Position numbers and translations under genes: made by a program. From assembly GCF_011806575.1 (NCBI RefSeq), contig NZ_JAATOO010000010.1, positions 62,001 through 126,000 on the forward strand: a DNA stretch of 64,000 bases, written 5' to 3'. A model generated the notes under the pieces. That model worked only from the letters and a program-made list of their open reading frames with translations. It did not search any database and was not told where the DNA came from. Within the stretch, counting starts at the first letter, position 1; every line of letters starts with the position of its first letter. Positions 1,406-17,323 of the stretch are shown here, piece by piece. Source of the stretch: Vibrio hepatarius (GTDB lineage Bacteria > Pseudomonadota > Gammaproteobacteria > Enterobacterales > Vibrionaceae).

Positions 1406-2191
1406 TTACTTTCCTAATTGCGAACGTGCGATTTTTCTTATCTTAGTGAGGACATCTTGTGTCAAATAATTAATAAGTACCGCTTTGTAAACACCTTTAA
1501 AGACAAAAAGACTCCCAGCAGAAGCGCCGATTACTTTAAACTTTTCAATCAACTTTAATATATCTTCTGAAGAACCCGCCCCGCCAAGTATCGTAAGTGG
1601 AACACTTGCAAGCTCTCGCACTTTTTCGGCCAACTTCATATCGTAGCCTTTCATCATTCCATCTTGATCAATTGAGTTGATAACTAGCTCACCAATTCCA
1701 ATTTCTTCTAGCTCAGATATGACTTGCTCAAGTTTGTTTTTAACTTTTTTCTTTCCGTTATGGGTATAAATCTCATAACTGCCAAATAACGTTTTCTTGA
1801 CGTCTAAAACGACAACCACACTTTGCTTGCCAATGATATCTGCCATTTTTCTAAGAACCGATGGGTTGCTTAACGCTTCACTTGAAACTGCGACTTTTTC
1901 AACACCCAACTTAATAATTTCTTGTGCTTGCTGGGGGGTTTTAATTCCTCCCCCGTAACACAATGGCATACGACTCTCGTTTGCTAGATGTTTGATCATT
2001 TGATAATCGGGAGATCGGTTTTCGACTGTTGCGTCAATATCTAACACAATCAGTTCATCCACCTCTTTTTCATTGAAGATTTTGACAGCATTAATTGGGT
2101 CCCCTACATACTTAGCATCTTTAAACTTTACAGTTTTTACTAGTCCTTTGTTATGAACGAGCAAACATGGGGATACTCTTGATCTCAACAT
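1406..2191 (-). CDS. wbuZ: HisF-like subunit of acetamidino sugar modification (AglZ/HisF2/WbuZ type)
   Basis: A 261-residue TIM-barrel protein of the HisF family. In true HisF the N-terminal motif is P-C-L-D-V, and that Asp is catalytic for the cyclase step. Here it reads SPCLLV, so the first catalytic Asp is replaced by Leu, while the second conserved Asp (VVVLDV) is kept. Loss of the cyclase residue, together with adjacent HisH-like and WbpG-like genes, identifies the polysaccharide paralogue rather than histidine biosynthesis. With the HisH partner it is thought to deliver glutamine-derived ammonia to the WbpG-type amidotransferase, which turns an N-acetyl into an acetamidino group. It overlaps the hisH-like gene by 7 bases, indicating translational coupling. 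The symbol follows the wbuX-wbuY-wbuZ naming; hisF2 is also used. Confidence 0.9.
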   Translation of the reverse strand: MLRSRVSPCLLVHNKGLVKTVKFKDAKYVGDPINAVKIFNEKEVDELIVLDIDATVENRSPDYQMIKHLANESRMPLCYGGGIKTPQQAQEIIKLGVEKVAVSSEALSNPSVLRKMADIIGKQSVVVVLDVKKTLFGSYEIYTHNGKKKVKNKLEQVISELEEIGIGELVINSIDQDGMMKGYDMKLAEKVRELASVPLTILGGAGSSEDILKLIEKFKVIGASAGSLFVFKGVYKAVLINYLTQDVLTKIRKIARSQLGK

Positions 2192-2808
2192 AATGAAAAC
2201 TCAGCAAAATTCTTAAATAAGTTAATACCATTCGAGTGACTTTTCTCAGGGTGGAATTGAAATCCAAATATGTTGTCTTTTCTCACAGCGCAGCAGAATT
2301 CATCACCATAGCGGGCGTTAATAAGTACATCTTTTGGATCGTGTGCGTCAAAGTAATATGAATGGATAAAATAGAACCCTTTCTCACAATCTATGTTATT
2401 TAACAGCGGATGTGATTCTGTCGGCTCTATCTCATTCCACCCCATATGCGGAAGTTTTGGCTTAAAGTCTATTTTTGACTCATCGAACTTCTTAACTGAA
2501 GCATCAAACCAACCAAGCCCAGCTAATTCACCTTCATCACTGCTTTTCGCCATCACTTGTAAACCAACACAAATCCCCAGCACCGGTTTTTTTTTGACCA
2601 GTGCAAAGTGATCTAGCGCTGCTCTCATCCCAGACTTTTCAAGTTGCGTCATCGCTTCATCAAAAGCACCAACACCTGGCAAGATAATCTTGTCCGCTTT
2701 TTTTAGTTCTTCTGGAGTAGTAGCAAAAAAAGTCTCAATCTTTAACTTAGTAAATATATTTTGAATGGCTTGAATGTTACCAGAGCCATAATCTACTATT
2801 GCGATCAT
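2185..2808 (-). CDS. wbuY: HisH-like glutamine amidotransferase of acetamidino modification
   Basis: A class I glutamine amidotransferase of 207 residues. The nucleophile motif GICVGLQVM carries the catalytic Cys, and the His-Glu pair is in FHPEKS near the C-terminus. The opening IVDYGSGN is the family signature. It hydrolyses glutamine to glutamate and ammonia, and in this setting the ammonia would pass through the HisF-like partner to WbpG. It overlaps the upstream wbpG-like gene by ATGA (4 bases) and the downstream hisF-like gene by 7 bases, so all three are translated as a unit. A role in histidine biosynthesis is unlikely: no other his genes are nearby and the partner HisF lacks its first catalytic Asp. 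Confidence 0.9.
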   Translation of the reverse strand: MIAIVDYGSGNIQAIQNIFTKLKIETFFATTPEELKKADKIILPGVGAFDEAMTQLEKSGMRAALDHFALVKKKPVLGICVGLQVMAKSSDEGELAGLGWFDASVKKFDESKIDFKPKLPHMGWNEIEPTESHPLLNNIDCEKGFYFIHSYYFDAHDPKDVLINARYGDEFCCAVRKDNIFGFQFHPEKSHSNGINLFKNFAEFSLC

Positions 2809-3938
2809 CTTTTGCCGCCTTTCTCAAGACCAAGCTTTCTCATCACCTTCGCACCTAAATCATAAATAGATTGCTGGTTTTTATAATCTTTGTAAGTTTT
2901 GTTAGGAGCTTCCAAATAACCTCTTAGTTCATCTGCTGTGATACCAAGCTTGTTAGCAATGTAGCTGAAATCATCATCGATCGTCTCTGGATCATATGGT
3001 GGCTTCTTGAGTCTCTCTAGTGCATCTTCGCGGGTCATTTGGCCTGTAACGATCAAACTAGAGTACTGTACTTTTCGAGTGTCATAACCAAACTTTTCGT
3101 ACAACCAATAAGCCTCATAGAAACGTGTAAAGCGGGACTCGAAGTGTTTTTGCGCGTAGCGCTGATAGCCGTAATTATCAACTAAAAACTGCGTCGCTTC
3201 CTCTTTATCATAAGGCATAAAGTCGAGTGGTCTATATAGCTTAATCCCTTTGATATACGGCAAGTACACTTTGTGCCATAAGATGTTTGTCAATGGGAAG
3301 TTTTTCAGTTTTTTCGTGCCAAATTTATTCTGAATATCTTTAATTTGACGAGAATCAGACTGGAAATACATCCATTCCAATGGGTTTCGAATACACTCGG
3401 TTGAGTAGTTACCACCGGTCAGAATGTGCTTAATATTATGCTTTGAAGCAAACTTGTACATGGTTGCGAAAAAAGCATGATCTTGTGGTGTATCAGTATG
3501 AGAAACACCGGCTTTAAAGAAAGAAAGCTGTAAGTCTTTCATTTCTTCCCAATCAATAACTTCTGTATAAAGATCTAAGCCAAGTCGGTCTACTATCTGC
3601 TCAATGTTATGAACAGCCTGTTGGGAGTTCCAGCCAGCATCAACATGGAAAACTAATGGTCTTAAGCCGAGTTTTTCTTTTGCTAAATAAACCAAATATG
3701 AGCTATCTATACCACCACTCATACCGATAATACAATCAAACTCTTTGCCTTTGCCTTCCTTCTTAATATCTGCAGCTATCTTAGTTATCTCTGCCCATCC
3801 CTTTTCGTCAGGATGCCAATTTGGCTTAATATCATTGTAAAAAGTCGTGCAGTGATCACATACACCATTTTCATCAAATGTAATCTTGCTATCTGTCGTG
3901 TCCATGACACAGTTAGTGCAAATTCTATAATTTTTCAT
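2805..3938 (-). CDS. wbuX: N-acetyl sugar amidotransferase (WbpG/PseA/WbuX type)
   Basis: A 377-residue PP-loop ATP pyrophosphatase. The N-terminus begins NYRICTNCVMDT and continues to CDHC, giving two C-x2-C pairs of a zinc site. The ATP-binding PP-loop is IGMSGGIDSSYLVY. Family members (WbpG in P. aeruginosa O-antigen, PseA in Campylobacter) convert an N-acetyl group on a nonulosonate or related sugar into an acetamidino group using ammonia. The frame is open 33 codons further upstream from a TTG, but the ATG at 3938 is chosen because family members start here and GGAAC lies 4 bases before it. It is the first gene of the wbuX-wbuY-wbuZ trio. About 230 bases separate it from the next upstream gene. 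Confidence 0.92.
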   Translation of the reverse strand: MKNYRICTNCVMDTTDSKITFDENGVCDHCTTFYNDIKPNWHPDEKGWAEITKIAADIKKEGKGKEFDCIIGMSGGIDSSYLVYLAKEKLGLRPLVFHVDAGWNSQQAVHNIEQIVDRLGLDLYTEVIDWEEMKDLQLSFFKAGVSHTDTPQDHAFFATMYKFASKHNIKHILTGGNYSTECIRNPLEWMYFQSDSRQIKDIQNKFGTKKLKNFPLTNILWHKVYLPYIKGIKLYRPLDFMPYDKEEATQFLVDNYGYQRYAQKHFESRFTRFYEAYWLYEKFGYDTRKVQYSSLIVTGQMTREDALERLKKPPYDPETIDDDFSYIANKLGITADELRGYLEAPNKTYKDYKNQQSIYDLGAKVMRKLGLEKGGKR

Positions 3939-4166
3939 AATAGTTCCAAAAACAAAGCCTAAAATGAAGGGACTAGCTACCATAAAATAGGGTCTAATAT
4001 CACTTCGTTGCCCAACACTCATCAGGCTTGCAGTCAATCAAACCAAACACTCTAGTCTAAAACAGAGCTGAATTAGAAGATGTGGTTTCTGACTTAAATT
4101 TCAAAATTAGTTTCATTTTCATATCGTAATAGGAGAAAATGTAGAGATAGCCACATCAAGAGTATG
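3939..4166. other. Intergenic gap inside the polysaccharide operon
   Basis: A 228-base A+T-rich stretch between the acyltransferase and wbuX. On the minus strand there is only a 21-codon ORF with a weak ribosome site and an in-frame upstream extension of wbuX. No terminator hairpin and no convincing promoter was seen. It may be decayed sequence or hold a secondary promoter for the acetamidino genes. Confidence 0.4.
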
Positions 4167-6349: not shown

Positions 6350-7588
6350 CTAATTAGTAGCCCTTTCTTTAATAAAATTTAGCAATTCTCGATACCTAAG
6401 AACACTATTAAAACTGTCTCTTCCTCTAGGAGGTGTTGTAATTAACCAGTTACTAATTAACTCATACTTACACTCTATCTTATAGACAAAGCCCTGGTTT
6501 TCTAACTCTGTATAATAATCAGACTTAGTTGAACGAAACTCAGGATTCATTACTAGTGACTTAACATTAAATTTAGCCGCTTCAATACAGACAGAGCTAG
6601 ACCAGGTTATATGATAGTCCACGTTCGATAGAATCAATGGTAGAGGAATAGAAGAGTAATACTCCCAATCAATATCGAACTCACTAAAACGCTCCCCCCA
6701 GTATTTACTAAACCTCACCCCTTCATCCGAAGCAAAGCCTTTCAGCTGATTTGGATGTAGACGCACTATCCAATTAAACTCGTCTTTGTGCTGTTTCATA
6801 AATCGCTCTAGTTCAGGATGGATAAACCCATTGGGTATAGTCACATCCCCCCAAGATAAAGACAGCACTATTGTACGTTTCTTTTTATCTACAACTATTG
6901 GGTGCTTATTTGTCAAGAAAGTTACAAGCTTATCACTTGCTTCCTTTTTAAGAAAACGGCTGATCCAAGGGTTACCAGTTTGAATAACGTCAATGCCCCT
7001 GCCTTGACACCATTTATCCATCACTTCAAAACTCCCTTCATCCCAAACCAAAAAAGCACTAGGCAACCAGCAATTAGGATCTGACGAACGAAACTTCTCA
7101 CCATACCATGGGTGGCTATCAGATATGACCCCGTGCTGGATATCTGCAACCCATATCCCTCGTTCGTGGCACAGTTTACATAGTTCTCTAGACGGGTTGA
7201 TTCCTACGACTACTTTTGGCATGACCTTGTCCAGAATATACTGCCATATCGAATATTCATAGTGAGAAAAAGGATAATCACTCGTAGTCATCCCTTTGAG
7301 CCTTTTCAGTATCATTGCACGAGCAAATGGCCCTTCCGGAGACAAAGCATTCCCATATGAGATATCGCCTTTAATTGTAGAAGCAATTCGAGTAATACTG
7401 ACGGTCGTTAAACCCAGCTTATTTAAATCATCTTCAAGAGTGTCAATTAAGGGTGAATACTTCTTTCCATTGAAGTCAATATATCTATCATTGTCACAAG
7501 CAAATGTCAGGACATCACTTTTAGGATAGCTGGGGTGACCAACCTTCAGACAGTCTAGTATTACTTTTCTAATTAGTTTTATGTCCAA
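6350..7588 (-). CDS. GT-B-like putative glycosyltransferase, possible nonulosonate transferase
   Basis: A 412-residue soluble protein with no signal peptide. Recognisable patches are ADIQHGVISDSHP, VWDEGSFEVMDKW followed by QTGNPWISR, WIVRLHPNQ, and TWSSSVCIEAAKF. The D-E-G, H-P and S-S patches occur in the same order as the D/E-D-G, H-P and S-S motifs of bacterial sialyltransferases (GT80/GT52/GT38). However, VWD...GNP also recalls CDP-glycerol-transferase-like GT-B proteins. The start is TTG at 7588: no ATG exists for over 70 codons, and AGGAG sits 6 bases upstream of the TTG. It overlaps wzx by 20 bases. Given the CMP-sugar-like pathway upstream, it is a candidate for the transferase that uses the CMP-activated sugar. 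I do not recognise a precise family. Confidence 0.6.
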   Translation of the reverse strand: MDIKLIRKVILDCLKVGHPSYPKSDVLTFACDNDRYIDFNGKKYSPLIDTLEDDLNKLGLTTVSITRIASTIKGDISYGNALSPEGPFARAMILKRLKGMTTSDYPFSHYEYSIWQYILDKVMPKVVVGINPSRELCKLCHERGIWVADIQHGVISDSHPWYGEKFRSSDPNCWLPSAFLVWDEGSFEVMDKWCQGRGIDVIQTGNPWISRFLKKEASDKLVTFLTNKHPIVVDKKKRTIVLSLSWGDVTIPNGFIHPELERFMKQHKDEFNWIVRLHPNQLKGFASDEGVRFSKYWGERFSEFDIDWEYYSSIPLPLILSNVDYHITWSSSVCIEAAKFNVKSLVMNPEFRSTKSDYYTELENQGFVYKIECKYELISNWLITTPPRGRDSFNSVLRYRELLNFIKERATN

Positions 7589-8881: not shown

Positions 8882-9562
8882 TTATCCAAATATTGAATAA
8901 TTGATAGCTCTAGCTAGGCTGGTTAGTATTCGCCAATTTGCTTTTAGTCGGCCGCCAAATCTAGGTTCGTCCTCTCGCTCATTCAAAAGAATATTAACCT
9001 GGAAAACGTTCATCCTATTTTTCTTTGCAACAATGACCATTTGCGTACCAATAGAATCATATGTTTCCATTGTGCCTAGCTTATGATACAAGCGGGCGCT
9101 ATAGGCCTTTAGTCCACATAGAGGATCCTTCACATTATAAAATAGTGAAAAATACATTGAATATATACGCTCAGAGAATCTAGCAAAGTAAGGGCGAATT
9201 CCTACTATTAAGTCAATTTGAGGTTCACCTTTACTCGATAACATTGATATTACCTCATGCACCGATGTCACTGGGTGCTGACCATCTGCATCCATCGTTA
9301 CTACATATTTTGCACTCATCCTATTAAAAGCCGCTGTCATGCCGATGCTCAAAGCACCGGCATAACCGTGATTCTCAGGTAACTCTATAACTGTACAACC
9401 AGAAGAAGTAGCAATAGATACTGTATTGTCTGTTGAAGCATCGCTGACTACAATAATTCCAATTTTGTCCTGAAACTGCTCTCTAAGTTCTGTAACGACT
9501 CTACCAATGGTTTTTTCTTCGTTATAAGCAGGTATTACTACTACGACTTCAGCATGTTCCAT
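8882..9562 (-). CDS. GT2 glycosyltransferase (dolichyl-phosphate-mannose-synthase-like)
   Basis: A 226-residue GT-A enzyme. VVVIPAYNEEKTIG opens the nucleotide-binding fold, VSDASTDNT gives the usual D-x-S-x-D, and VTMDADGQHP is the metal-binding DxD-like motif. A later GLKAYSARL resembles the G-F-R/K region of polyprenyl-phosphate glycosyltransferases. There are no membrane segments beyond a weakly hydrophobic C-terminus. It either builds the repeat unit at the cytoplasmic face or makes a polyprenyl-phosphate sugar donor. It overlaps the NeuB-like gene by 22 bases, so it is coupled to the sugar-synthesis block. Donor and acceptor are unknown. Confidence 0.85.
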   Translation of the reverse strand: MEHAEVVVVIPAYNEEKTIGRVVTELREQFQDKIGIIVVSDASTDNTVSIATSSGCTVIELPENHGYAGALSIGMTAAFNRMSAKYVVTMDADGQHPVTSVHEVISMLSSKGEPQIDLIVGIRPYFARFSERIYSMYFSLFYNVKDPLCGLKAYSARLYHKLGTMETYDSIGTQMVIVAKKNRMNVFQVNILLNEREDEPRFGGRLKANWRILTSLARAINYSIFG

Positions 9563-10632
9563 TTTAAATACTCACCACCATTTACATTACAACTCAATTC
9601 CTTACCTACAATGCAATCTAGGTCGTAGGGCGCAATTGCATCTTCTGGACATGGGCGCAAGCAGATTAAATCTTCATACCCAATAATATCACCAGCTTTA
9701 AGATTAACATCATCACGCAGTCGAATAGAACGTCTCTGTACAACTACAGTTTCCTTTTCGTTTTCTTCTACTTTCTTGACCCCATTACCCAGTGCTAGCG
9801 TTAGTTCGTTAGAACGATCTACCATCTCTCTCCAAGTTGACGGAGTCATAGCAAATTTGTGATCTGGGCCTTCATTCTCATTACTATCTGTAAAGTGTTT
9901 TTCAATAACGTTGGCCCCTAAAGCGATCGCACCTAACACTGTCGCGTGACCAGGAGTATGGTCACTAAGACCGAGGACTGCTTCTGGGTACATAGCTCTT
10001 AATGTCTTAAGTACATTCAAATTAATGTATTTAAAGTTATCTAGAGAAGCAGTATAGTTAGTATTGCACTGCATGATGGCAATATCTTTGGTATGCTTAC
10101 TAGCTATACGCACAGCAGAATCGATCTCATCTATAGTTGAAGCTCCACAAGCTAACAAGATCGGCTTGTTTTTCGAAGCCATTCTATCGATAATTTCATG
10201 CCATGTAATATCACCAGACCCTACTTTATAGGCAGGAACAAAATGATCGACGAAATCTACCAATTCTAAAGAGTAAGGACTGGTGAAAAATTCAACATTT
10301 GCTTCTTTACATGTTTCAACAAGAGTTTCCGTCCAATCTAAGTTAATGGAAGCTCCCTTATAAACTTCAAAAACTGATTTTTTCCATTTCGATTGGTGAG
10401 ACTGTTTGTTGCCTAGCTGATCAAAACCAGTTTTACTTACGATAGTATCTGCTTTAAAGTGCTGAAACTTTACTGCATGGGAACCAGCTTCAGCAGCCAT
10501 GTGAATAAGATCTTGAGCCTTCTGTAAAGACCCGTCATGATTTGCTCCAATATCAGCAATAAAGTATGGATCCCCATTATTATTAAGTGTATGAGATCCA
10601 ATTTTAAATTGACTATTAAACTTTGTATTCAT
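9541..10632 (-). CDS. NeuB-family nonulosonate synthase-like protein with SAF domain
   Basis: A 363-residue protein. The catalytic TIM barrel (about residues 20-270) has FIADIGANHDG, the substrate-lysine region AVKFQHFKADT, KVGSGDI and VLGLSDHT. The metal and catalytic segment is IEKHFTDSNENEGPDHKF; well-studied NeuB/PseI enzymes read EKHFTLDR..PGPDH here, so this is a distinct subfamily. A C-terminal SAF/antifreeze-like domain (about 290-360) begins near VVQRRSIRL. NeuB enzymes condense phosphoenolpyruvate with a hexosamine to give a nine-carbon 2-keto acid. It overlaps the upstream reductase gene by 17 bases, with GGAAA inside that gene as ribosome site. The substrate is not deducible: Neu, Leg, Pse or a variant are all possible. 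Confidence 0.88.
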   Translation of the reverse strand: MNTKFNSQFKIGSHTLNNNGDPYFIADIGANHDGSLQKAQDLIHMAAEAGSHAVKFQHFKADTIVSKTGFDQLGNKQSHQSKWKKSVFEVYKGASINLDWTETLVETCKEANVEFFTSPYSLELVDFVDHFVPAYKVGSGDITWHEIIDRMASKNKPILLACGASTIDEIDSAVRIASKHTKDIAIMQCNTNYTASLDNFKYINLNVLKTLRAMYPEAVLGLSDHTPGHATVLGAIALGANVIEKHFTDSNENEGPDHKFAMTPSTWREMVDRSNELTLALGNGVKKVEENEKETVVVQRRSIRLRDDVNLKAGDIIGYEDLICLRPCPEDAIAPYDLDCIVGKELSCNVNGGEYLKWNMLKS

Positions 10633-11464
10633 TTGCTACTTTCCTAATTTCTTCTTCTAACTTCGGCATCGTGGTCGAAAATGTCTGTTCAAATTTCGTA
10701 ATACACATACGCATGTCATGTGGACGTGCAACAGATAATTCTGGCATGTTGACAAGCTCATATTCAAACTCAGCATTTACTTCAGTCAAAAACTTGCTGA
10801 TAAAGTCTCCCTTCGACATCCCGCATCTTGAACCTAAATTATAAACACCTGCCTTCGGATTATGTATCACTAACAAGATATTCTCAATTAAGCTATCTAT
10901 AGACAACGGTGAGAAAAATACATCCTTAAACAAACTAAGTTTCCTTCCAGACAAAGCCATTTCATACACTGAATCACATAAACCAACTGAACGCATGCTC
11001 TTTGATTTACCAAAAAAGTTGGTTCTCAATATAGTCGTCCTTGAGAGGTCACAATATTGCTCACCTTCTAGCTTAGTTTTCGCATAATTGTTTAAAACAA
11101 CCACTTCGTTTTCTTTAGAAAGGTTACTGTTATATATATGATCGGTAGATATATGGATTACGTGTGAATTTTTATAACTTGAACGAGCAATGTTATCTGG
11201 TATGCATGCATTAAGAGAGAATGCTAAACTTGGCTCTGTTTCACATAAAGCGACGTCTGTTAATGCAGCCAAGTTTATGATATATTGTGGATTTTCCTTA
11301 TTCAATACTTCATCAAGCTGCTCAGCAATATCTGCTTGAATTCTATAATTACTATTTAGACTGGTACGAGTCACAGTGACAACCTCATAGCCCTGTAGTA
11401 TTAAAAATTCACTTAGCGAACTGCCCAATAACCCACTAGAACCAATTATTAGTATTTTTTTCAT
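10616..11464 (-). CDS. RmlD-like NAD(P)-dependent sugar reductase (SDR)
   Basis: A 282-residue extended SDR protein. The Rossmann motif IIGSSGLLGSSLSEF lies at the N-terminus. NLAALTDVALCE, the ISTDHIYN catalytic Ser region and the YAKTKLEGE catalytic Tyr-x3-Lys follow in RmlD order, and ILRTNFFGK matches that family's later motif. RmlD reduces dTDP-4-keto-6-deoxy sugars. No rmlABC genes are visible, so this copy probably reduces a keto group on the neighbouring pathway's intermediate. It shares a TAATG junction with the aminotransferase gene (one base overlap) and overlaps the NeuB-like gene by 17 bases. Fold and catalytic residues are clear; the substrate is inference. Confidence 0.85.
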   Translation of the reverse strand: MKKILIIGSSGLLGSSLSEFLILQGYEVVTVTRTSLNSNYRIQADIAEQLDEVLNKENPQYIINLAALTDVALCETEPSLAFSLNACIPDNIARSSYKNSHVIHISTDHIYNSNLSKENEVVVLNNYAKTKLEGEQYCDLSRTTILRTNFFGKSKSMRSVGLCDSVYEMALSGRKLSLFKDVFFSPLSIDSLIENILLVIHNPKAGVYNLGSRCGMSKGDFISKFLTEVNAEFEYELVNMPELSVARPHDMRMCITKFEQTFSTTMPKLEEEIRKVANEYKV

Positions 11465-12654
11465 TAGAATCTTTCTTCAAATTCCAAGATTGTTTTTCGT
11501 AGTATCTTTGCCTGCTTACGGGCTTCATCAGTATCCCAATAATTGGTCTTCATCGCGATAATTCGACTTTGTACATATTCAGCGTTTGGACACGTAACAT
11601 CGTTATAGTCTATAGCGATATAGTCATTTCTCCTGCCAAAAATTTTGTTTGTGAACAATGGCTCTTGGTAAGTTAACTTCCAAGCACCATAAAACGGCAG
11701 ACCACCGTTTCTAATAAATGCTTGATAGAAATCCTCCCAAGAAACCTTATCTGTATCAAGAATACAAGCAAATGCCCAATAGGAACTAACACAATGCTCT
11801 GGAACCTTCTGTGGAATAATCCAACTACAACCTTCAAGCGCCTCTAAATAGTAAGAAGCTGAGATTTTCCTAATTTCAACTAGCTCTTCTATTCTCTCTA
11901 CTTGTGCTAAAGCAACTGCACAACACAGCTCAGGCATTCGATAATTCCAACCTAAAGCATCATGGCGAACATAATTCGGGTTTTGAATATCTGCTTTAGT
12001 GATCTTTGCTTTTTTTGAACCTAAAGCAGCATATCCAAGACCAGTGACTTTTCTCACCTTAATAGCTAGCTCTTCATTATTCGTGGTAGTCATCCCTCCT
12101 TCACCACTGCTAATATGCTTTGAGCTTTGGAAACTGTAGCTAGCTGCATCCCCAAAGTTTCCGAGAAGCTTCCCTTTATAATACGATAAGAACGATTGAG
12201 CGTTATCTTCGATAACAATCAAATTATGCTTCTTTGCGATACTGCAAATCGCATCCATTTCTGGAGACAAGCCATACAGAGACACAGTAATTATTGCTTT
12301 TGTCTTTGAAGTAATTTTGCTTTCTATATCATTCGCGGAGATGACCAGAGTGTCTCTTTCAACATCTGCAAATATAGGGGTAGCATTGGCATGAATCACG
12401 GCTAAGCTAGTACTTGCCATAGTAAGTGGAGGTACAATTACTTCATCACCCTCACCAATTCCGGCCGCTTCGAGTACCGAGTGCATTGTTGCAGTGCCGT
12501 TTACATGAGATATTGAAAAGTTTGTTTCAAAAGTTTCACAAAACTGATGCTCTAGTCTAGTCATAAACTCAGCACCTTTAGAGCTTCTAAAACTATTGCT
12601 TAGAACTTCTCGTACATAGCTAAGTTCTTTGTCTGATATACGTTTAACTTTCAT
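11464..12654 (-). CDS. DegT/DnrJ/EryC1/StrS PLP-dependent sugar aminotransferase
   Basis: A 396-residue aminotransferase. VNGTATMHSVLEAAGIG (cofactor phosphate loop), VIEDNAQSF (Asp for the pyridine nitrogen) and SFQSSKHISSGEGGM (Schiff-base Lys) are all present. Family members add an amino group to a keto-sugar nucleotide. Beside a 4,6-dehydratase, the expected product is a 4-amino-4,6-dideoxy sugar, as in Pse and Leg synthesis. The frame is open 8 codons upstream to a TTG, but the ATG at 12654 is preferred: it follows the previous stop by 4 bases and fits the family N-terminus. It diverges from the well-known PseC/LegC sequence patterns I can recall, so the exact substrate is uncertain. Confidence 0.87.
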   Translation of the reverse strand: MKVKRISDKELSYVREVLSNSFRSSKGAEFMTRLEHQFCETFETNFSISHVNGTATMHSVLEAAGIGEGDEVIVPPLTMASTSLAVIHANATPIFADVERDTLVISANDIESKITSKTKAIITVSLYGLSPEMDAICSIAKKHNLIVIEDNAQSFLSYYKGKLLGNFGDAASYSFQSSKHISSGEGGMTTTNNEELAIKVRKVTGLGYAALGSKKAKITKADIQNPNYVRHDALGWNYRMPELCCAVALAQVERIEELVEIRKISASYYLEALEGCSWIIPQKVPEHCVSSYWAFACILDTDKVSWEDFYQAFIRNGGLPFYGAWKLTYQEPLFTNKIFGRRNDYIAIDYNDVTCPNAEYVQSRIIAMKTNYWDTDEARKQAKILRKTILEFEERF

Positions 12655-12658
12655 AATA

Positions 12659-13519
12659 TTACCACTGTGTTGGGTCAACTAACTTAGGGTTATCTACAGC
12701 TAAATCCCCCCATTGACTTGTGTCTACTTCTTTACTAAATGCCAAGAGTATCTCTCGCATCTGTTCAACTGAAGTTGCGCCGACAACTATCTTGTCTATT
12801 TCTTTGATATTGTCGACGAATTTAATAGCAGCTTCGACCTTAGATAGACTCAAGAGGTCGATTGCTTCGACAAATTTCTTATGGTATGGTTTGATGCTTG
12901 GCAAGCTGGACACATCATTGGACAGCAATAGTCCTTGTAAAAAAACAGAACGAGCATGAATTTCAATATCGAACTCTTTCAGTTTACCGAGAAAACCATC
13001 TGTCTTCATACGTTGGTCAAAAAGACTAAAAGGTAGTTGTACAAAATCAATAGCTTTTAATACGTCGATAAAATCTATCTGCGATCTTTTGTATATCGAA
13101 ATTCCAACATTCTTCGCTAAACCTTTTTCTTTCACATAAGAAAGTAACTCCAGGTAATTTTCACGATTTCTATACATAAACGCATTTGGATCGTGTATAA
13201 GCAAACCATGTAAAGTATTGCCTCCCAAACGCTTTATAGATGCTTCAACATTTGTTATCAACCGACCCACATCTGCAATTTCACCTTCGAATTGAGTTTT
13301 GGTAATAACTTGAATGTCTCCATCCATCACCTTTGAGTTTCTCCCAAGTCGCTTTTCACTCAATCCGTAAGCGGGAGCAGTATCCAGCAAAAGAGTACCT
13401 TGCTCAAAGCAAAGATCTATAATAGCTTCCATTTGGTCATCACTTACGACACCTTGTTCGTTTGTAATACCATAATCTAATCCAAACTGAGCCGTACCTA
13501 AGACAATTTTGCTACTCAT
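12659..13519 (-). CDS. Aldo/keto reductase family oxidoreductase
   Basis: A 286-residue TIM-barrel reductase. All four catalytic residues are visible: Asp and Tyr in LLDTAPAYG, Lys in VITKTQ and His in LLIHDP. LGTAQFGLDYGITN at the start marks the subgroup often found in polysaccharide and flagellin-glycosylation loci. It would use NADPH to reduce or, in reverse, oxidise a sugar carbonyl. It overlaps the SpsF-like gene by 8 bases. No classical Neu, Leg or Pse route that I know needs an aldo/keto reductase, so its presence points to a modified product or intermediate. Confidence 0.87.
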   Translation of the reverse strand: MSSKIVLGTAQFGLDYGITNEQGVVSDDQMEAIIDLCFEQGTLLLDTAPAYGLSEKRLGRNSKVMDGDIQVITKTQFEGEIADVGRLITNVEASIKRLGGNTLHGLLIHDPNAFMYRNRENYLELLSYVKEKGLAKNVGISIYKRSQIDFIDVLKAIDFVQLPFSLFDQRMKTDGFLGKLKEFDIEIHARSVFLQGLLLSNDVSSLPSIKPYHKKFVEAIDLLSLSKVEAAIKFVDNIKEIDKIVVGATSVEQMREILLAFSKEVDTSQWGDLAVDNPKLVDPTQW

Positions 13520-14300
13520 CTTTTTGTTCTCTACAAAGTGAATCCTTCGCCAAAGATTTTATTAATCCTTCATTTCTAACAAATGATGAGTTAATAACTC
13601 TAAATTCATCATTAGAATCAAGCAAATGTACAACTTCATTCATATGGAATTTTTCGTTTTTAGGATAAAGCGCTTCATAAACACTTTTTGTAAACTCAAA
13701 GTCCGCTGGTTCATCGACTGTCCAACGTTCTTTTTCAAGAGATGATTTCTCTAAAGCTATGTTTTGAACCACAAACTCAGATGGCCTATTCTTAATAAAC
13801 AACGTTACATGCTCTCTCTCTGAAGGTAGTGAAGCATGCTCCCACATCTGACGTAGGGCTGTGGCGGTAAAAACTTCAACATCTAACCCATCGGGAAAAG
13901 TGTACTCCAAAGTATTCGACGTATAGTCATTCTGGTATATCAAGTGATTTAACAAAACAAGGTCTATAATCTGGCTATCGATAAAAGGACAATCTGCAGT
14001 CAATCGAATAACATTAACAACTTCACGATGTTCTTGGATCGACAGAACGGCATTGTAATATCTATCTAATACGTCATCTAAACTTCCTCGAAAAACATTG
14101 ACTCCATTTTGAATGCAATGCTGTTCAAGGATATCATCAGATTCATGAACGCTAGTCGCTACCAAAATATCATCAACATACTTCGATTGTTTTATTCTAC
14201 GGATCTGATGCATTAATAGTGTCTCACCACATATATCTTTTAGTACCTTACCAGGTAAGCGAGACGAGCTCATTCTCGCCTGTAATACAACTAAATTCAT
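13512..14300 (-). CDS. SpsF-like cytidylyltransferase (putative CMP-sugar synthase)
   Basis: A 262-residue nucleotidyltransferase of the SpsF/NeuA-like group. NLVVLQARMSSSRLPGKVL is the signature loop binding the nucleotide triphosphate, and later LTADCPFID supplies the Asp that binds metal. In pathways with a NeuB-type synthase, this protein takes the CMP-transfer role. The frame is open 14 codons further up, inside the dehydratase gene, but ATG 14300 fits the family start and lies 7 bases after the dehydratase stop. It overlaps the aldo/keto reductase gene by 8 bases. Activity as a CMP-transferase is inferred from context; SpsF proteins are little characterised. Confidence 0.85.
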   Translation of the reverse strand: MNLVVLQARMSSSRLPGKVLKDICGETLLMHQIRRIKQSKYVDDILVATSVHESDDILEQHCIQNGVNVFRGSLDDVLDRYYNAVLSIQEHREVVNVIRLTADCPFIDSQIIDLVLLNHLIYQNDYTSNTLEYTFPDGLDVEVFTATALRQMWEHASLPSEREHVTLFIKNRPSEFVVQNIALEKSSLEKERWTVDEPADFEFTKSVYEALYPKNEKFHMNEVVHLLDSNDEFRVINSSFVRNEGLIKSLAKDSLCREQKDE

Positions 14301-14307
14301 AGAGGAC

Positions 14308-15321
14308 CTACTGCTCTTCAGTTGCACCAATAATTGTGGCAATTTTGCTTCTTAGTGAGTTAACGCTTTCCCATTCTTCATTAGTGCCTGAGTTGTACTT
14401 AAATCCAAAGGGAACCTTTGTCGCGTTGTGATGAGACAAGTATTCCTGTTCAGTATAAGTAAATGAAACCGAAGGCAAAATTGCATAATATCGACCTAAA
14501 TCTATTGTATTTAGAGAATCTGTATCGGTGATCATCTCCTCGTGAAGTTTTTCACCCGGTCGAATACCCACAATTTTGGTTTTACACTCAGGTGCAATTG
14601 CTTCTGCGACATCCAAAATCTTATATGAAGGAATTTTCGGGATAAAGATCTCACCGCCAAGATGATTCTCTAATGCGTACATAACCATGTTTACACCATC
14701 TTGAAGCGATATATTAAATCTCGTCATTTCAGGGTGGGTTATTGGCAAAATCCCGTCAGATTTCTTAGTCATAAAAAACGGTATTACTGAACCTCGGGAG
14801 CCCATAACGTTTCCGTAACGCACAACACTAAAACGAATATCTTTAGAACCCTTGATATTATTTGCTGCTGTAAACAATTTATCTGACGCGAGTTTTGTCG
14901 CACCGTACAGGTTAATAGGGGCACATGCTTTATCTGTGGAGAGTGCAACAACATTGCTCACTCCGCATTGCAGTGCTGCTTGGATAACATTTTCTGCACC
15001 GGTTACATTAGTACGTATACATTCAGTTGGATTATACTCTGCTGTATCCACCTGTTTTATTGCAGCGGCATGAATAATTACGTCAACGCCCTCACAAGCC
15101 TGGATAAGGCGCGCTTGATCTCTTACATCACCAATAAAGAATCTTAGTTGTGGATACTCAACTTCTGGATACGTTTGCTTTAACTCAAACTGCTTCAACT
15201 CATCTCGAGAAAAAATAATGATCTTCTTAACATCTCGATAGCGAGCGAGTATTGTTTTAACAAATTGTTTACCGAAAGAACCTGTGCCACCTGTAATGAG
15301 TACCGTTTTATCGTTTAACAT
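14308..15321 (-). CDS. PseB-like UDP-sugar 4,6-dehydratase (polysaccharide biosynthesis protein)
   Basis: A 337-residue extended SDR. VLITGGTGSFGKQFV binds NAD(P), IFSRDELKQFE is characteristic of the PseB/FlaA1 branch, and the catalytic region reads STDKACAPINLYGATK, with Met/Asp-Lys replacing the usual Tyr-dependent layout seen in PseB. The reaction is removal of water from UDP-GlcNAc to give a 4-keto-6-deoxy sugar, with C5 inversion in PseB itself. The ATG at 15321 is chosen over an upstream GTG because AGGTGG lies 5 bases before it. It is the first enzyme of the block that continues with SpsF, reductase, aminotransferase and synthase genes. Whether it inverts C5 (Pse-type) or not (Leg/Bac-type) cannot be decided here. 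Confidence 0.85.
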   Translation of the reverse strand: MLNDKTVLITGGTGSFGKQFVKTILARYRDVKKIIIFSRDELKQFELKQTYPEVEYPQLRFFIGDVRDQARLIQACEGVDVIIHAAAIKQVDTAEYNPTECIRTNVTGAENVIQAALQCGVSNVVALSTDKACAPINLYGATKLASDKLFTAANNIKGSKDIRFSVVRYGNVMGSRGSVIPFFMTKKSDGILPITHPEMTRFNISLQDGVNMVMYALENHLGGEIFIPKIPSYKILDVAEAIAPECKTKIVGIRPGEKLHEEMITDTDSLNTIDLGRYYAILPSVSFTYTEQEYLSHHNATKVPFGFKYNSGTNEEWESVNSLRSKIATIIGATEEQ

Positions 15322-15346
15322 TATTTCCACCTGAATTTATTACTAA

Positions 15347-15517: not shown

Positions 15518-17323
15518 CTACTTAACATGATAAAGATAATAAGTTTTCATCGTATCTCTTCCTTGGAAGGAGTCTAAAAGTTGATTACCTTTTCCTTGAT
15601 TTATTAATACTTCCTTCGAAGAGATAATATATTCCCCTCCCATTGATTTGAACTGTTCTAAGTTTAAATCAATCTCGTCATTAGCTTCCATCAGGCGACA
15701 GCGACTACCCCAGTCATCAAAATATGACCTCCAAGTTTCAGACTTTGCTAACTCTGGAGCGATAATTTTTCGAAAATCATGCTTGTGCTTAAGAGGATAA
15801 GATGACCAATACCCATCTAATGTATAGAAACCATTGTATATAGCGATTGCAGGGTTAAAGCCAATAGTCATCACACGATATGTTTTGGTGGGTTTACCTA
15901 TTACATCTTTAATCCCGTCAAACACTTCCTCGCTATAGTAATCATCCATACCGGATGCCTCCTGATTACCGTTCATCGACAAAAATGAATGATTAATCTG
16001 CAAAATCGATACCAATAGAATTGGTATTAGAGACCATTTCGTTCTATCCATTAGCTCCTTACACACTAAGGAGAAGAGGCTAAACCACAAGATAGGGAAG
16101 AGAAAATAGAATCGATCAAACTGAACTTGAGCAAAAATAGGAATTTTTTCCTTTACAAACTCCAAAGCAGCATGGTTATAAAACCCTGACAAAAAAGAAA
16201 TACCAACTATAGAAAGGATCAGTGATGTTAGAAGATATTTTCTTGAAAATAGAAAAATTATAGCTATATAGACAATTCCATACGTAAACAAAGTCTTAGT
16301 AGAAAAAGGTAGCAATTCAAATCTAAAATAATAACTTAAGAAAAAGTATATAGTCGTAAAAATACACAGTGCGCGACTCTGTCTATTAGAAAGTATCAAA
16401 GCCAGACTTGAAAAAAGCAAAAATGGCATTATATACTGATAATGAAGCGAGTGTGCATGGTACTGTCCATAGCTCAGTATATAGATAGCTCGGTCGAATG
16501 CTTGTTGAGTACTTAAAGTACTTAGAGAAAACTCTTGCCGATGAGAAATAAAACTTGGATCAATAAATTCCACTACCAATCTATACTCAGCAAATAGATA
16601 TAAAATAGACATTAATGATATTGAAAATAACAAGTGGTAGTTTATTTTTTTCTTATCAAAGATATCATAAGCGAAGATAACAAGACATAAAAATAGAAAA
16701 AACATACCCGAAAGTATCAAAGAGCTATAGAAAGGAAAAATTAAAAATATCGCCAACTCTTTTAATTTAAATATTCCATTTTTGACATTCAAATAAGCGT
16801 ATAATAGCAAAGGTTGTCCAGCTACACTTAAACCTCCATTCGACCAAAATGGCAATAATGAAAAGGCAAGCGCAATAAACAACCCAATCAACTTAAAATG
16901 TATATCTTTATCATTTTCTTTGAAAATGTGTCTACTAACTAATAGATACATACCAAAGATAGCTACTATTCTTAATACAGCTTCATTAACAATATAAGCT
17001 ATTTTCGAATCAAACGTGTAGTACATGAGAGAAACTACATTAAGTTCACTTGGTAATATTGATCGAGGTATTCCCCCAAGTATATTTGACACAATAACAC
17101 TGCTATCTGCAAACATATAATCCATGGCAGACATAACCTTAAATATTGCTATATTCGCATCTAAGTTATCATGAATATTGACAACCAAATCACCTTCAGT
17201 ATTAAAATAAGAAGACAGATAGTAAGCTATTATTGTAAAACAGAAAGATACAAATATGACACTTATAAGCCTAACTAGCTTATTTTCATGTTCTTTAGCA
17301 ACATAATTCATAATGGGTTTCAT
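15518..17323 (-). CDS. Large polytopic membrane protein, DUF6044/YkoS-like
   Basis: A 601-residue protein with one helix near residue 25, a periplasmic-looking segment, then about ten to twelve more helices and a C-terminal soluble domain of ~150 residues. The soluble domain contains VMTIGFNPAIAIYNGF, TLDGYWSSYPL and YFDDWGSRCRL, patterns I associate with DUF6044 (B. subtilis YkoS). The overall layout recalls GT-C glycosyltransferases and YfhO-like proteins, which use lipid-linked sugars at the outer face of the inner membrane. Here it would modify or extend the polysaccharide in the periplasm. It is flanked by short A+T-rich gaps. Membrane nature is certain; family is likely; activity is inference. 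Confidence 0.7.
   Translation of the reverse strand: MKPIMNYVAKEHENKLVRLISVIFVSFCFTIIAYYLSSYFNTEGDLVVNIHDNLDANIAIFKVMSAMDYMFADSSVIVSNILGGIPRSILPSELNVVSLMYYTFDSKIAYIVNEAVLRIVAIFGMYLLVSRHIFKENDKDIHFKLIGLFIALAFSLLPFWSNGGLSVAGQPLLLYAYLNVKNGIFKLKELAIFLIFPFYSSLILSGMFFLFLCLVIFAYDIFDKKKINYHLLFSISLMSILYLFAEYRLVVEFIDPSFISHRQEFSLSTLSTQQAFDRAIYILSYGQYHAHSLHYQYIMPFLLFSSLALILSNRQSRALCIFTTIYFFLSYYFRFELLPFSTKTLFTYGIVYIAIIFLFSRKYLLTSLILSIVGISFLSGFYNHAALEFVKEKIPIFAQVQFDRFYFLFPILWFSLFSLVCKELMDRTKWSLIPILLVSILQINHSFLSMNGNQEASGMDDYYSEEVFDGIKDVIGKPTKTYRVMTIGFNPAIAIYNGFYTLDGYWSSYPLKHKHDFRKIIAPELAKSETWRSYFDDWGSRCRLMEANDEIDLNLEQFKSMGGEYIISSKEVLINQGKGNQLLDSFQGRDTMKTYYLYHVK

Follow-up and report, generated by a model that had tools for sequence, protein, structure and literature searches.

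An apparent variant of nonulosonate biosynthesis in an O-antigen-like region of Vibrio hepatarius

The operon and its genes

A stretch of 64,000 nucleotides (nt) from Vibrio hepatarius (NCBI RefSeq assembly GCF_011806575.1, contig NZ_JAATOO010000010.1, positions 62,001 to 126,000 of the forward strand), here called the window, was analysed for an operon that appears to encode a new variant of nonulosonate biosynthesis, with a rare sialic-acid-like sugar as its predicted product. The operon lies on the minus strand and reads, in order, PseB, SpsF, an aldo/keto reductase (AKR), a DegT-family aminotransferase, an RmlD-type short-chain dehydrogenase/reductase (SDR), a NeuB-family synthase and a GT2 glycosyltransferase (Table 1), within an O-antigen-like region that also holds a polysaccharide flippase-type protein, wecC and wecB. 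The genome is a draft of 4.7 Mb with completeness 100 and contamination 1.17.

A first-pass annotation had described the first six genes as tightly overlapping, with intact motifs. All of the open reading frames (ORFs) were found on the minus strand, PseB exceeded its curated cut-off and the domains were matched. The listed overlaps from PseB to GT2 are 35, 8, 20, 1, 17 and 22 nt; those of 8, 1, 17 and 22 nt stand on ATG starts, but the 35- and 20-nt overlaps need TTG starts and vanish at the next ATG (SpsF, TTG at 14342 and ATG at 14300; DegT, TTG at 12678 and ATG at 12654). For PseB the listed ORF reaches a GTG at 15330, with an ATG at 15321. Chance or artefact was ruled out as an origin of the arrangement by the intact ORFs, the PseB score and a gene order kept in locus L008 of another genome.

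The AKR is the sole match in the genome at E<=1e-5. Its residues D46/Y51/K74/H109, which we take to be the catalytic tetrad, were invariant across 5 aligned sequences, as were D45/Y50/K74/H116 (numbering of the first sequence) across a second alignment (n=12). Y127/K131 of the SDR were invariant in 10/10 sequences.

Table 1. Positions in the window of the operon genes and of nearby genes for a predicted acetamidino modification
Feature	Positions	Strand	Part and predicted role	Support
PseB, uridine diphosphate (UDP)-N-acetylglucosamine (UDP-GlcNAc) 4,6-dehydratase (inverting)	14308..15321	-	core	TIGR03589 538 bits, cut-off 408
SpsF-type cytidylyltransferase (cytidine monophosphate (CMP)-sugar synthetase)	13512..14300	-	cassette	Pfam CTP_transf_3 114 bits
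Aldo/keto reductase (AKR)	12659..13519	-	cassette, predicted C8-ketone maker	Pfam Aldo_ket_red 87 bits
DegT-family pyridoxal phosphate (PLP) aminotransferase	11464..12678	-	cassette, predicted to aminate the AKR-made ketone	Pfam DegT_DnrJ_EryC1 261 bits
RmlD-type extended SDR	10616..11464	-	core, predicted 4-keto reductase	Pfam RmlD_sub_bind 112 bits
NeuB-family nonulosonate synthase	9541..10632	-	core	Pfam NeuB 241 bits; SAF 23 bits, cut-off 21
GT2 glycosyltransferase	8882..9562	-	final operon gene	Pfam Glycos_transf_2 89 bits
WbuX-type N-acetyl sugar amidotransferase	2805..4037	-		TIGR03573 330 bits, cut-off 203
HisH-like glutaminase subunit of amidotransferase	2185..2808	-		TIGR01855 230 bits, cut-off 105
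HisF2/AglZ-type acetamidino modification protein	1406..2191	-		NF038364 363 bits, cut-off 310

The synthase clade and the genes that travel with it

Relatives were collected by a one-genome-per-species scan with the window NeuB peptides, which gave 114, and the best 80 of these (50-90% identity) were kept; the nearest among the best 80 was from Vibrio tubiashii T33 (90%). A plasmid locus, L006 (NeuB 51.5% identity), was added, L030 was dropped for having no NeuB gene in the ORF set, and L007, a distant member (31%), was left aside, so that 81 loci were counted: 79/80 kept relatives, the window and L006. With the NeuB of the window as query and only the 80 best of 114 relatives retained, the sample stops short of the clade's outer edge. 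Many of the loci are metagenome bins, and contig ends cut some of them. Neighbouring genes were clustered and scored by domain, strand being ignored in the counts: PseB and SDR were counted within 10 genes of NeuB, and SpsF and PseF-like genes within 4 genes, on either strand. PseF-like means at least 38% identity to the PseF of L009, and DegT type at least 50% identity to the window DegT. Loci with at least 5 genes on both sides of NeuB formed the well-flanked subset (n=55).

The window NeuB scored 266 bits against TIGR03569 (N-acetylneuraminate synthase), under the cut-off of 399.65, and 235 bits against TIGR03586 (PseI), under that of 340.25. A quick tree was built from 48/81 clade members including the window, with 5 PseI and 7 NeuB sequences as references, each of the latter lying beside a NeuC-type gene; biochemically proven NeuB, LegI and PseI entered the comparison only through the curated models and solved structures. 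All 48 members fell on one side of a branch (Shimodaira-Hasegawa-like approximate likelihood ratio test, SH-aLRT, 100), apart from all of the references, with weak support (76) for the placement of the clade relative to PseI. The structural model (predicted local distance difference test, pLDDT, 91) gave template modelling (TM) scores of 0.81-0.85 to PseI 8h2c and NeuB 1xuu. By both domains and fold the protein is assigned to the NeuB superfamily, and it is predicted to condense an N-acyl aldose with phosphoenolpyruvate (PEP).

The clade has its own signature columns. Position 27 is Asp in 78/81 members and Glu in 5/5 PseI and in 6/6 NeuB references with a residue there; in the Neisseria enzyme this column holds Glu25, presumably a catalytic residue. 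Further fixed columns that differ from the references include A164 (Met or Ile there), T194 (Pro there) and N192. The divergence of this NeuB, proposed from the window alone, was borne out, and the active segment that had been called unlike the Neu/Leg/Pse form is real: P256, H258 and F260 are invariant in the 81 members, and H258 occurs in 1/12 references, but F260 is common to 5/5 PseI. One annotated record labels a clade member 'N-acetylneuraminate synthase family protein'. A phage collection held 3 weak NeuB matches and zero AKR matches, and a scan of viral contigs gave no NeuB relative and 6 AKR relatives at 26-37% identity. In Clostridium magnum (L028) a broken second NeuB-like gene with one internal stop (G018:C1:1157865-1158137) lies about 1.3 kb after the intact one.

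Close relatives of the core gene set occur in several bacterial phyla. PseB was found in 60/81 loci and SDR in 67/81; the SDR stands directly before NeuB in 64/81, PseB lies within 5 genes in 57/81, and the SDR is kept in 35/38 well-flanked loci that lack AKR. PseB, SDR and a cytidylyltransferase occur without AKR or aminotransferase in 26/55 well-flanked loci, and the SDR therefore works without either. The six genes, read in the first-pass annotation as one unit, do form one operon, but comparison splits them into a core (PseB, SDR, NeuB) and a cassette (SpsF, AKR, DegT).

SpsF accompanies this NeuB in 50/81 loci and a PseF-like enzyme in 13/81, both together in 0; SpsF is not odd in this family but the commoner of the two alternatives. 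The clade NeuB (E 1e-90 or better) was present in 6/296 Vibrionaceae genomes searched, 4/6 of the operons reading PseB-PseF-SDR-NeuB-GT2 and 2/6 (the window and one relative) PseB-SpsF-AKR-DegT-SDR-NeuB-GT2, so that the cassette occupies exactly the PseF slot. In L009, the one minimal relative tested, PseF scored over its cut-off.

Of the 81 loci, 20 have AKR, 6 a DegT-type and 16 a class III aminotransferase, and none has both aminotransferase types. AKR and aminotransferase occurred together in 19 of the 81, AKR alone in 1, aminotransferase alone in 3 and neither in 58 (Fisher 2e-14); among well-flanked loci an aminotransferase was present in 17/17 with AKR and in 3 without. Phylogenetically independent pairs (FastTree) changed in the same direction 7-8 times and in the opposite direction 0 times, with no difference in 1-2 (p about 0.016). 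Fusions join SpsF to an aminotransferase (L012, L014, L019, L047, L077 and also L088, a Pse cluster), AKR to an aminotransferase (L041, L067) and a cytidylyltransferase to AKR (L090, L091). The 6/6 AKR-linked DegT proteins form one clade (SH-aLRT 100), apart from one PseC reference. A Maritalea plasmid bearing this NeuB (L091) also encodes a 915-aa fusion of cytidylyltransferase, AKR and a BNR repeat region (L091:3298-6045), with a gene annotated alpha-2,3-sialyltransferase nearby.

In or near pseudaminic acid (Pse) genes the AKR pairs with a class III aminotransferase (L088) or a classical SDR (L089, L090); pseI lies about 5 kb from the AKR of L090, on the other strand. The AKR-adjacent SDRs outside this operon are classical (L089, adh_short_C2; L090 and L091, by best NCBIfam models), and in L089 and L090 the architecture matches that of EpaA/EpaB. 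EpaA, a cytidylyltransferase-AKR protein, and EpaB convert Pse5Ac7Ac to its 8-epimer, as shown by nuclear magnetic resonance (PMC12053666); the earlier statement that known routes have no need of an aldo/keto reductase is wrong in view of this precedent. Like EpaA, the window combines CTP_transf_3 with AKR, here as two adjacent genes; it differs in the DegT partner of its AKR, in an operon SDR of RmlD type rather than classical and in a core other than the Pse pathway. In Aeromonas flagellar islands the pse gene set also includes a reductase and an aminotransferase of class III, and PseG is absent from two subgroups (PMC7874193); the main text of a Clostridium pseudaminic acid paper has no mention of 'aldo', 'reductase' or 'SpsF' (PMC13317340).

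Missing steps, the glycosyltransferase and the neighbourhood

A hydrolase must free the sugar from UDP before NeuB can act. Curated models for the missing steps were run genome-wide and judged by their curated cut-offs; to the left of the window on the same contig about 30 kb of ORFs were listed, 5 annotated and the others judged by sequence start alone, and for 30-64 kb of the window, its right half, as well as for the contig further on, the analysis relied on the genome-wide searches rather than on gene-by-gene annotation. The genome's best PseG score was 18.4 bits (cut-off 153.55) and its best PseH score, on another contig, 67.2 bits (cut-off 93.1). For PseC the best match was the operon DegT itself, at 197 bits against a cut-off of 423.5, followed by one at 160 bits; the same DegT scored 222 bits with a LegC-family model, far under cut-off. 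The two Epimerase_2 proteins over cut-off reached 95 and 89 bits with NeuC (cut-off 235.9), but both are of the non-hydrolysing WecB type, with scores of 535 and 523 bits for the wecB model, and WecB as the hydrolase was ruled out by these scores. The absence of a hydrolase and an acetyltransferase, first noted for the window, thus extends to the whole genome at curated cut-offs, and a position of the missing steps just beyond the window was rejected on the same searches and the ORFs listed to the left. In the genomes of relatives, counted irrespective of their completeness, PseG was over cut-off in 2/49, both Clostridium and both with the gene some 5 kb or less from this NeuB, with a model that in a control exceeded its cut-off in 2/14 known genomes; NeuC was over cut-off in 6/49, a different NeuB lying near it in 5/6.

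The GT2 protein has a DADG motif and a GT-A fold, ArnC and GpgS being the nearest folds. It may be the nonulosonate transferase or, conceivably, the missing UDP-sugar hydrolase, and the fold does not discriminate between the two. Across the 81 loci the NeuB-adjacent gene is a GT2 in 25, a GNAT in 17 and both in 0, and in 26 it comes from a family represented in L031 by a GT4. The GNAT is PseH-like, and in the one tested it fell below the PseH cut-off.

The WbuX/HisH/HisF trio (Table 1) probably serves to convert an N-acetyl to an acetimidoyl substituent. The HisH and HisF pair was found in 4/6 DegT-type loci against 1/75 others (p 4e-5), two of the four being near relatives.

Several further features were recorded around the operon. 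Directly upstream of PseB, at 15518-17323, lies a gene for a DUF6044 protein of 601 aa, and in L008 this position is taken by a 606-aa protein of the same cluster. Past the flippase-type gene, on its downstream side, a 412-aa ORF (6350-7588) is without any Pfam match up to E=1. About 9 kb to the left of the window start, on the same contig, a transketolase is split into two genes for its C- and N-terminal parts (L107:6314-7995); it adjoins an epimerase-GT2 fusion and a methyltransferase, two nearby ORFs look RmlA- and RmlB-like by eye, and on these similarities a branched deoxythymidine diphosphate (dTDP)-sugar pathway is possible there. On contig C73 of the same genome a second polysaccharide locus (L100) has its own wecB and a gene that is wecC-like by eye.

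Proposed route, alternatives and significance

From the observed gene families, clade, linkage, slot swap and fusions we infer substrates, the site at C8, step order and stereochemistry, and our preferred reading, with a probability of about 0.45, is that the operon makes a CMP-activated nonulosonate of the O-chain by a core route followed by a C8-amine cassette. PseB would convert UDP-GlcNAc to a 4-keto-6-deoxy-L-altrose-type intermediate, and the RmlD-type SDR would reduce C4 in place of amination to give UDP-6-deoxy-N-acetyl-L-altrosamine (UDP-6-deoxy-L-AltNAc). After UDP removal by a hydrolase not yet assigned to a gene, NeuB would condense 6-deoxy-L-AltNAc with PEP to a 5-acetamido-3,5,9-trideoxy nonulosonate with a hydroxyl at C7 (fusaminic acid or its C4 epimer). 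The AKR would then oxidise the C8 hydroxyl, DegT would aminate the C8 ketone and SpsF would attach CMP. For an AKR acting at C8, EpaA is the one experimental precedent. With an SDR present in loci that lack an aminotransferase, and with no PseC or PseH over cut-off, reduction rather than amination is the most likely fate of the PseB ketone. C4, the centre that the synthase sets, is where the gluco and manno series diverge, and both therefore fit one precursor. As C9 is deoxy, a C8 ketone would be a methyl ketone; methyl ketones are usual substrates of class III aminotransferases. PDB relatives of the class III enzyme include GSAM (168 bits) and, below it, an aminopentol aminotransferase (156 bits).

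Known systems offer partial parallels. The CMP-pseudaminic acid pathway shares with this locus PseB over cut-off, a NeuB-family synthase and, in L009, PseF; it differs in that the window genome has no PseC, PseH or PseG over cut-off, the synthase lies outside the PseI clade and the SDR would stand at the PseC step. In Shewanella 8-amino-Kdo (Kdo, 3-deoxy-D-manno-octulosonic acid) synthesis, C8 is oxidised by the alcohol dehydrogenase KdnB and then aminated by the DegT-family KdnA. The proposed C8 steps follow the same order, and the window DegT matches KdnA 5k8b over 37-378, but here on a nine-carbon sugar and with AKR in place of KdnB. In favour of the preferred reading, among solved structures DegT is nearer to KdnA (150 bits) than to PseC (78), although another sugar aminotransferase (175) and perosamine synthases (166) outscore KdnA; the ranking is compatible with action on an ulosonic acid without proving it. 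The legionaminic pathway of Bacillus subtilis (SpsM, C, D, G, E, F) likewise has SpsF as cytidylyltransferase and UDP-linked precursors (PMC7439481); unlike it, the window genome has no SpsG/PseG-like hydrolase over cut-off, SpsC and SpsD relatives not having been searched for as such. The O-chain of Fusobacterium nucleatum 25586 contains L-6dAltNAc and a 5-acetimidoyl-3,5,9-trideoxy-gluco-nonulosonate (fusaminic acid), tentatively of L-glycero-L-gluco configuration (PMC13014188). These sugars are the products that the core logic would predict, with the precursor 6-deoxy-L-AltNAc and the acetimidoyl substitution in common; a C8 amine is predicted for the window alone, which was set against the structure and not the genes. 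An 8-amino nonulosonate has been reported from Flexibacter maritimus (PMC3210612). We found no description in the open-access literature of genes for fusaminic-type or 8-amino nonulosonates, and the main text of the Tenacibaculum maritimum genome paper has no O-antigen, lipopolysaccharide, nonulo or aminotransferase (PMC5561996).

A number of points weigh against the preferred reading. The UDP-sugar hydrolase is unaccounted for by PseG and NeuC models in the genome and in those of the 49 relatives, and the operon has no acyltransferase for the new amine. Of the 17 loci in which a GNAT follows NeuB, 7 have no aminotransferase, which the scheme leaves unexplained. Fusaminic and 8-amino sugars are connected with the locus by chemistry only and not through F. 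nucleatum 25586 or T. maritimum genes, and EpaA/EpaB was compared by Pfam family and description and not by sequence. AKR occurs without aminotransferase in L022 (a 7.5-kb contig) and aminotransferase without AKR in L012, L014 and L021; the AKR lies on the opposite strand in L024, L077 and L082, while the counts ignore strand; and identity to the window AKR is 23-35% in 18/19 other AKR loci and 68% in L008.

Three other explanations were weighed. DegT might be a PseC-like C4 aminotransferase giving a 7-amino sugar, with AKR and the RmlD-type SDR epimerising C8 as in EpaA/EpaB to an 8-epi-pseudaminic acid relative. DegT is indeed the genome's best PseC match, if far below the PseC and LegC-family cut-offs, and EpaA/EpaB likewise couples an AKR with an SDR (PMC12053666). 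Yet the SDR is present in 35/38 well-flanked loci without AKR, so its role there is not C8 epimerisation; the AKR-adjacent SDRs of L089, L090 and L091 are classical like EpaB, the DegT clade is separate from the one PseC reference, and PseH, which a C4 amine should require, was not found over cut-off. We regard this explanation as unlikely. Equally unlikely, in our judgement, is that the core works as proposed and that AKR and aminotransferase act at another position or stage, such as C7 or the CMP-linked nonulosonate, or modify a different sugar: the SpsF fusions would agree with a CMP-linked substrate, but the only characterised protein found with this architecture changes C8 (PMC12053666), the known 8-amino sugar requires such a step (PMC3210612) and nothing observed points to C7.

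Still less probable is that the UDP-6-deoxy-L-AltNAc made by PseB and SDR goes into the O-chain as such and that NeuB draws its aldose from another source. The PseB branch would then need no hydrolase, in keeping with the hydrolase searches above, and the F. nucleatum 25586 O-chain does hold L-6dAltNAc itself (PMC13014188). Against it stand the close linkage of SDR and PseB to NeuB (64/81 and 57/81 loci) and the genome's two WecB proteins, both non-hydrolysing, so that no source of N-acetylmannosamine is seen.

An unusual CMP-nonulosonate, as first suggested, remains the best reading; the earlier interpretation was right in outline (nonulosonate, synthase, missing steps) and wrong on the AKR. 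More speculative, and in our view doubtful, is a fusaminic-type branch spread over many phyla, in which a 6-deoxy-L-AltNAc synthase clade takes up a plug-in C8 module, the AKR-made ketone being reduced to an 8-epimer or aminated to an 8-amino sugar, so that C8 would be a modular point of diversification, and UDP is removed by an unrecognised enzyme, possibly the synthase-adjacent GT-fold protein.

If the preferred reading is true, the locus would supply candidates for the genes behind fusaminic-type and 8-amino nonulosonates, sugars known so far by structure, define a synthase clade and point to an unrecognised UDP-sugar hydrolase. O-chain structure would become predictable from gene order, according to whether the slot holds PseF or SpsF-AKR-aminotransferase. 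Nonulosonates resemble host sialic acids, and predicting the right sugar matters for reading surface antigens.

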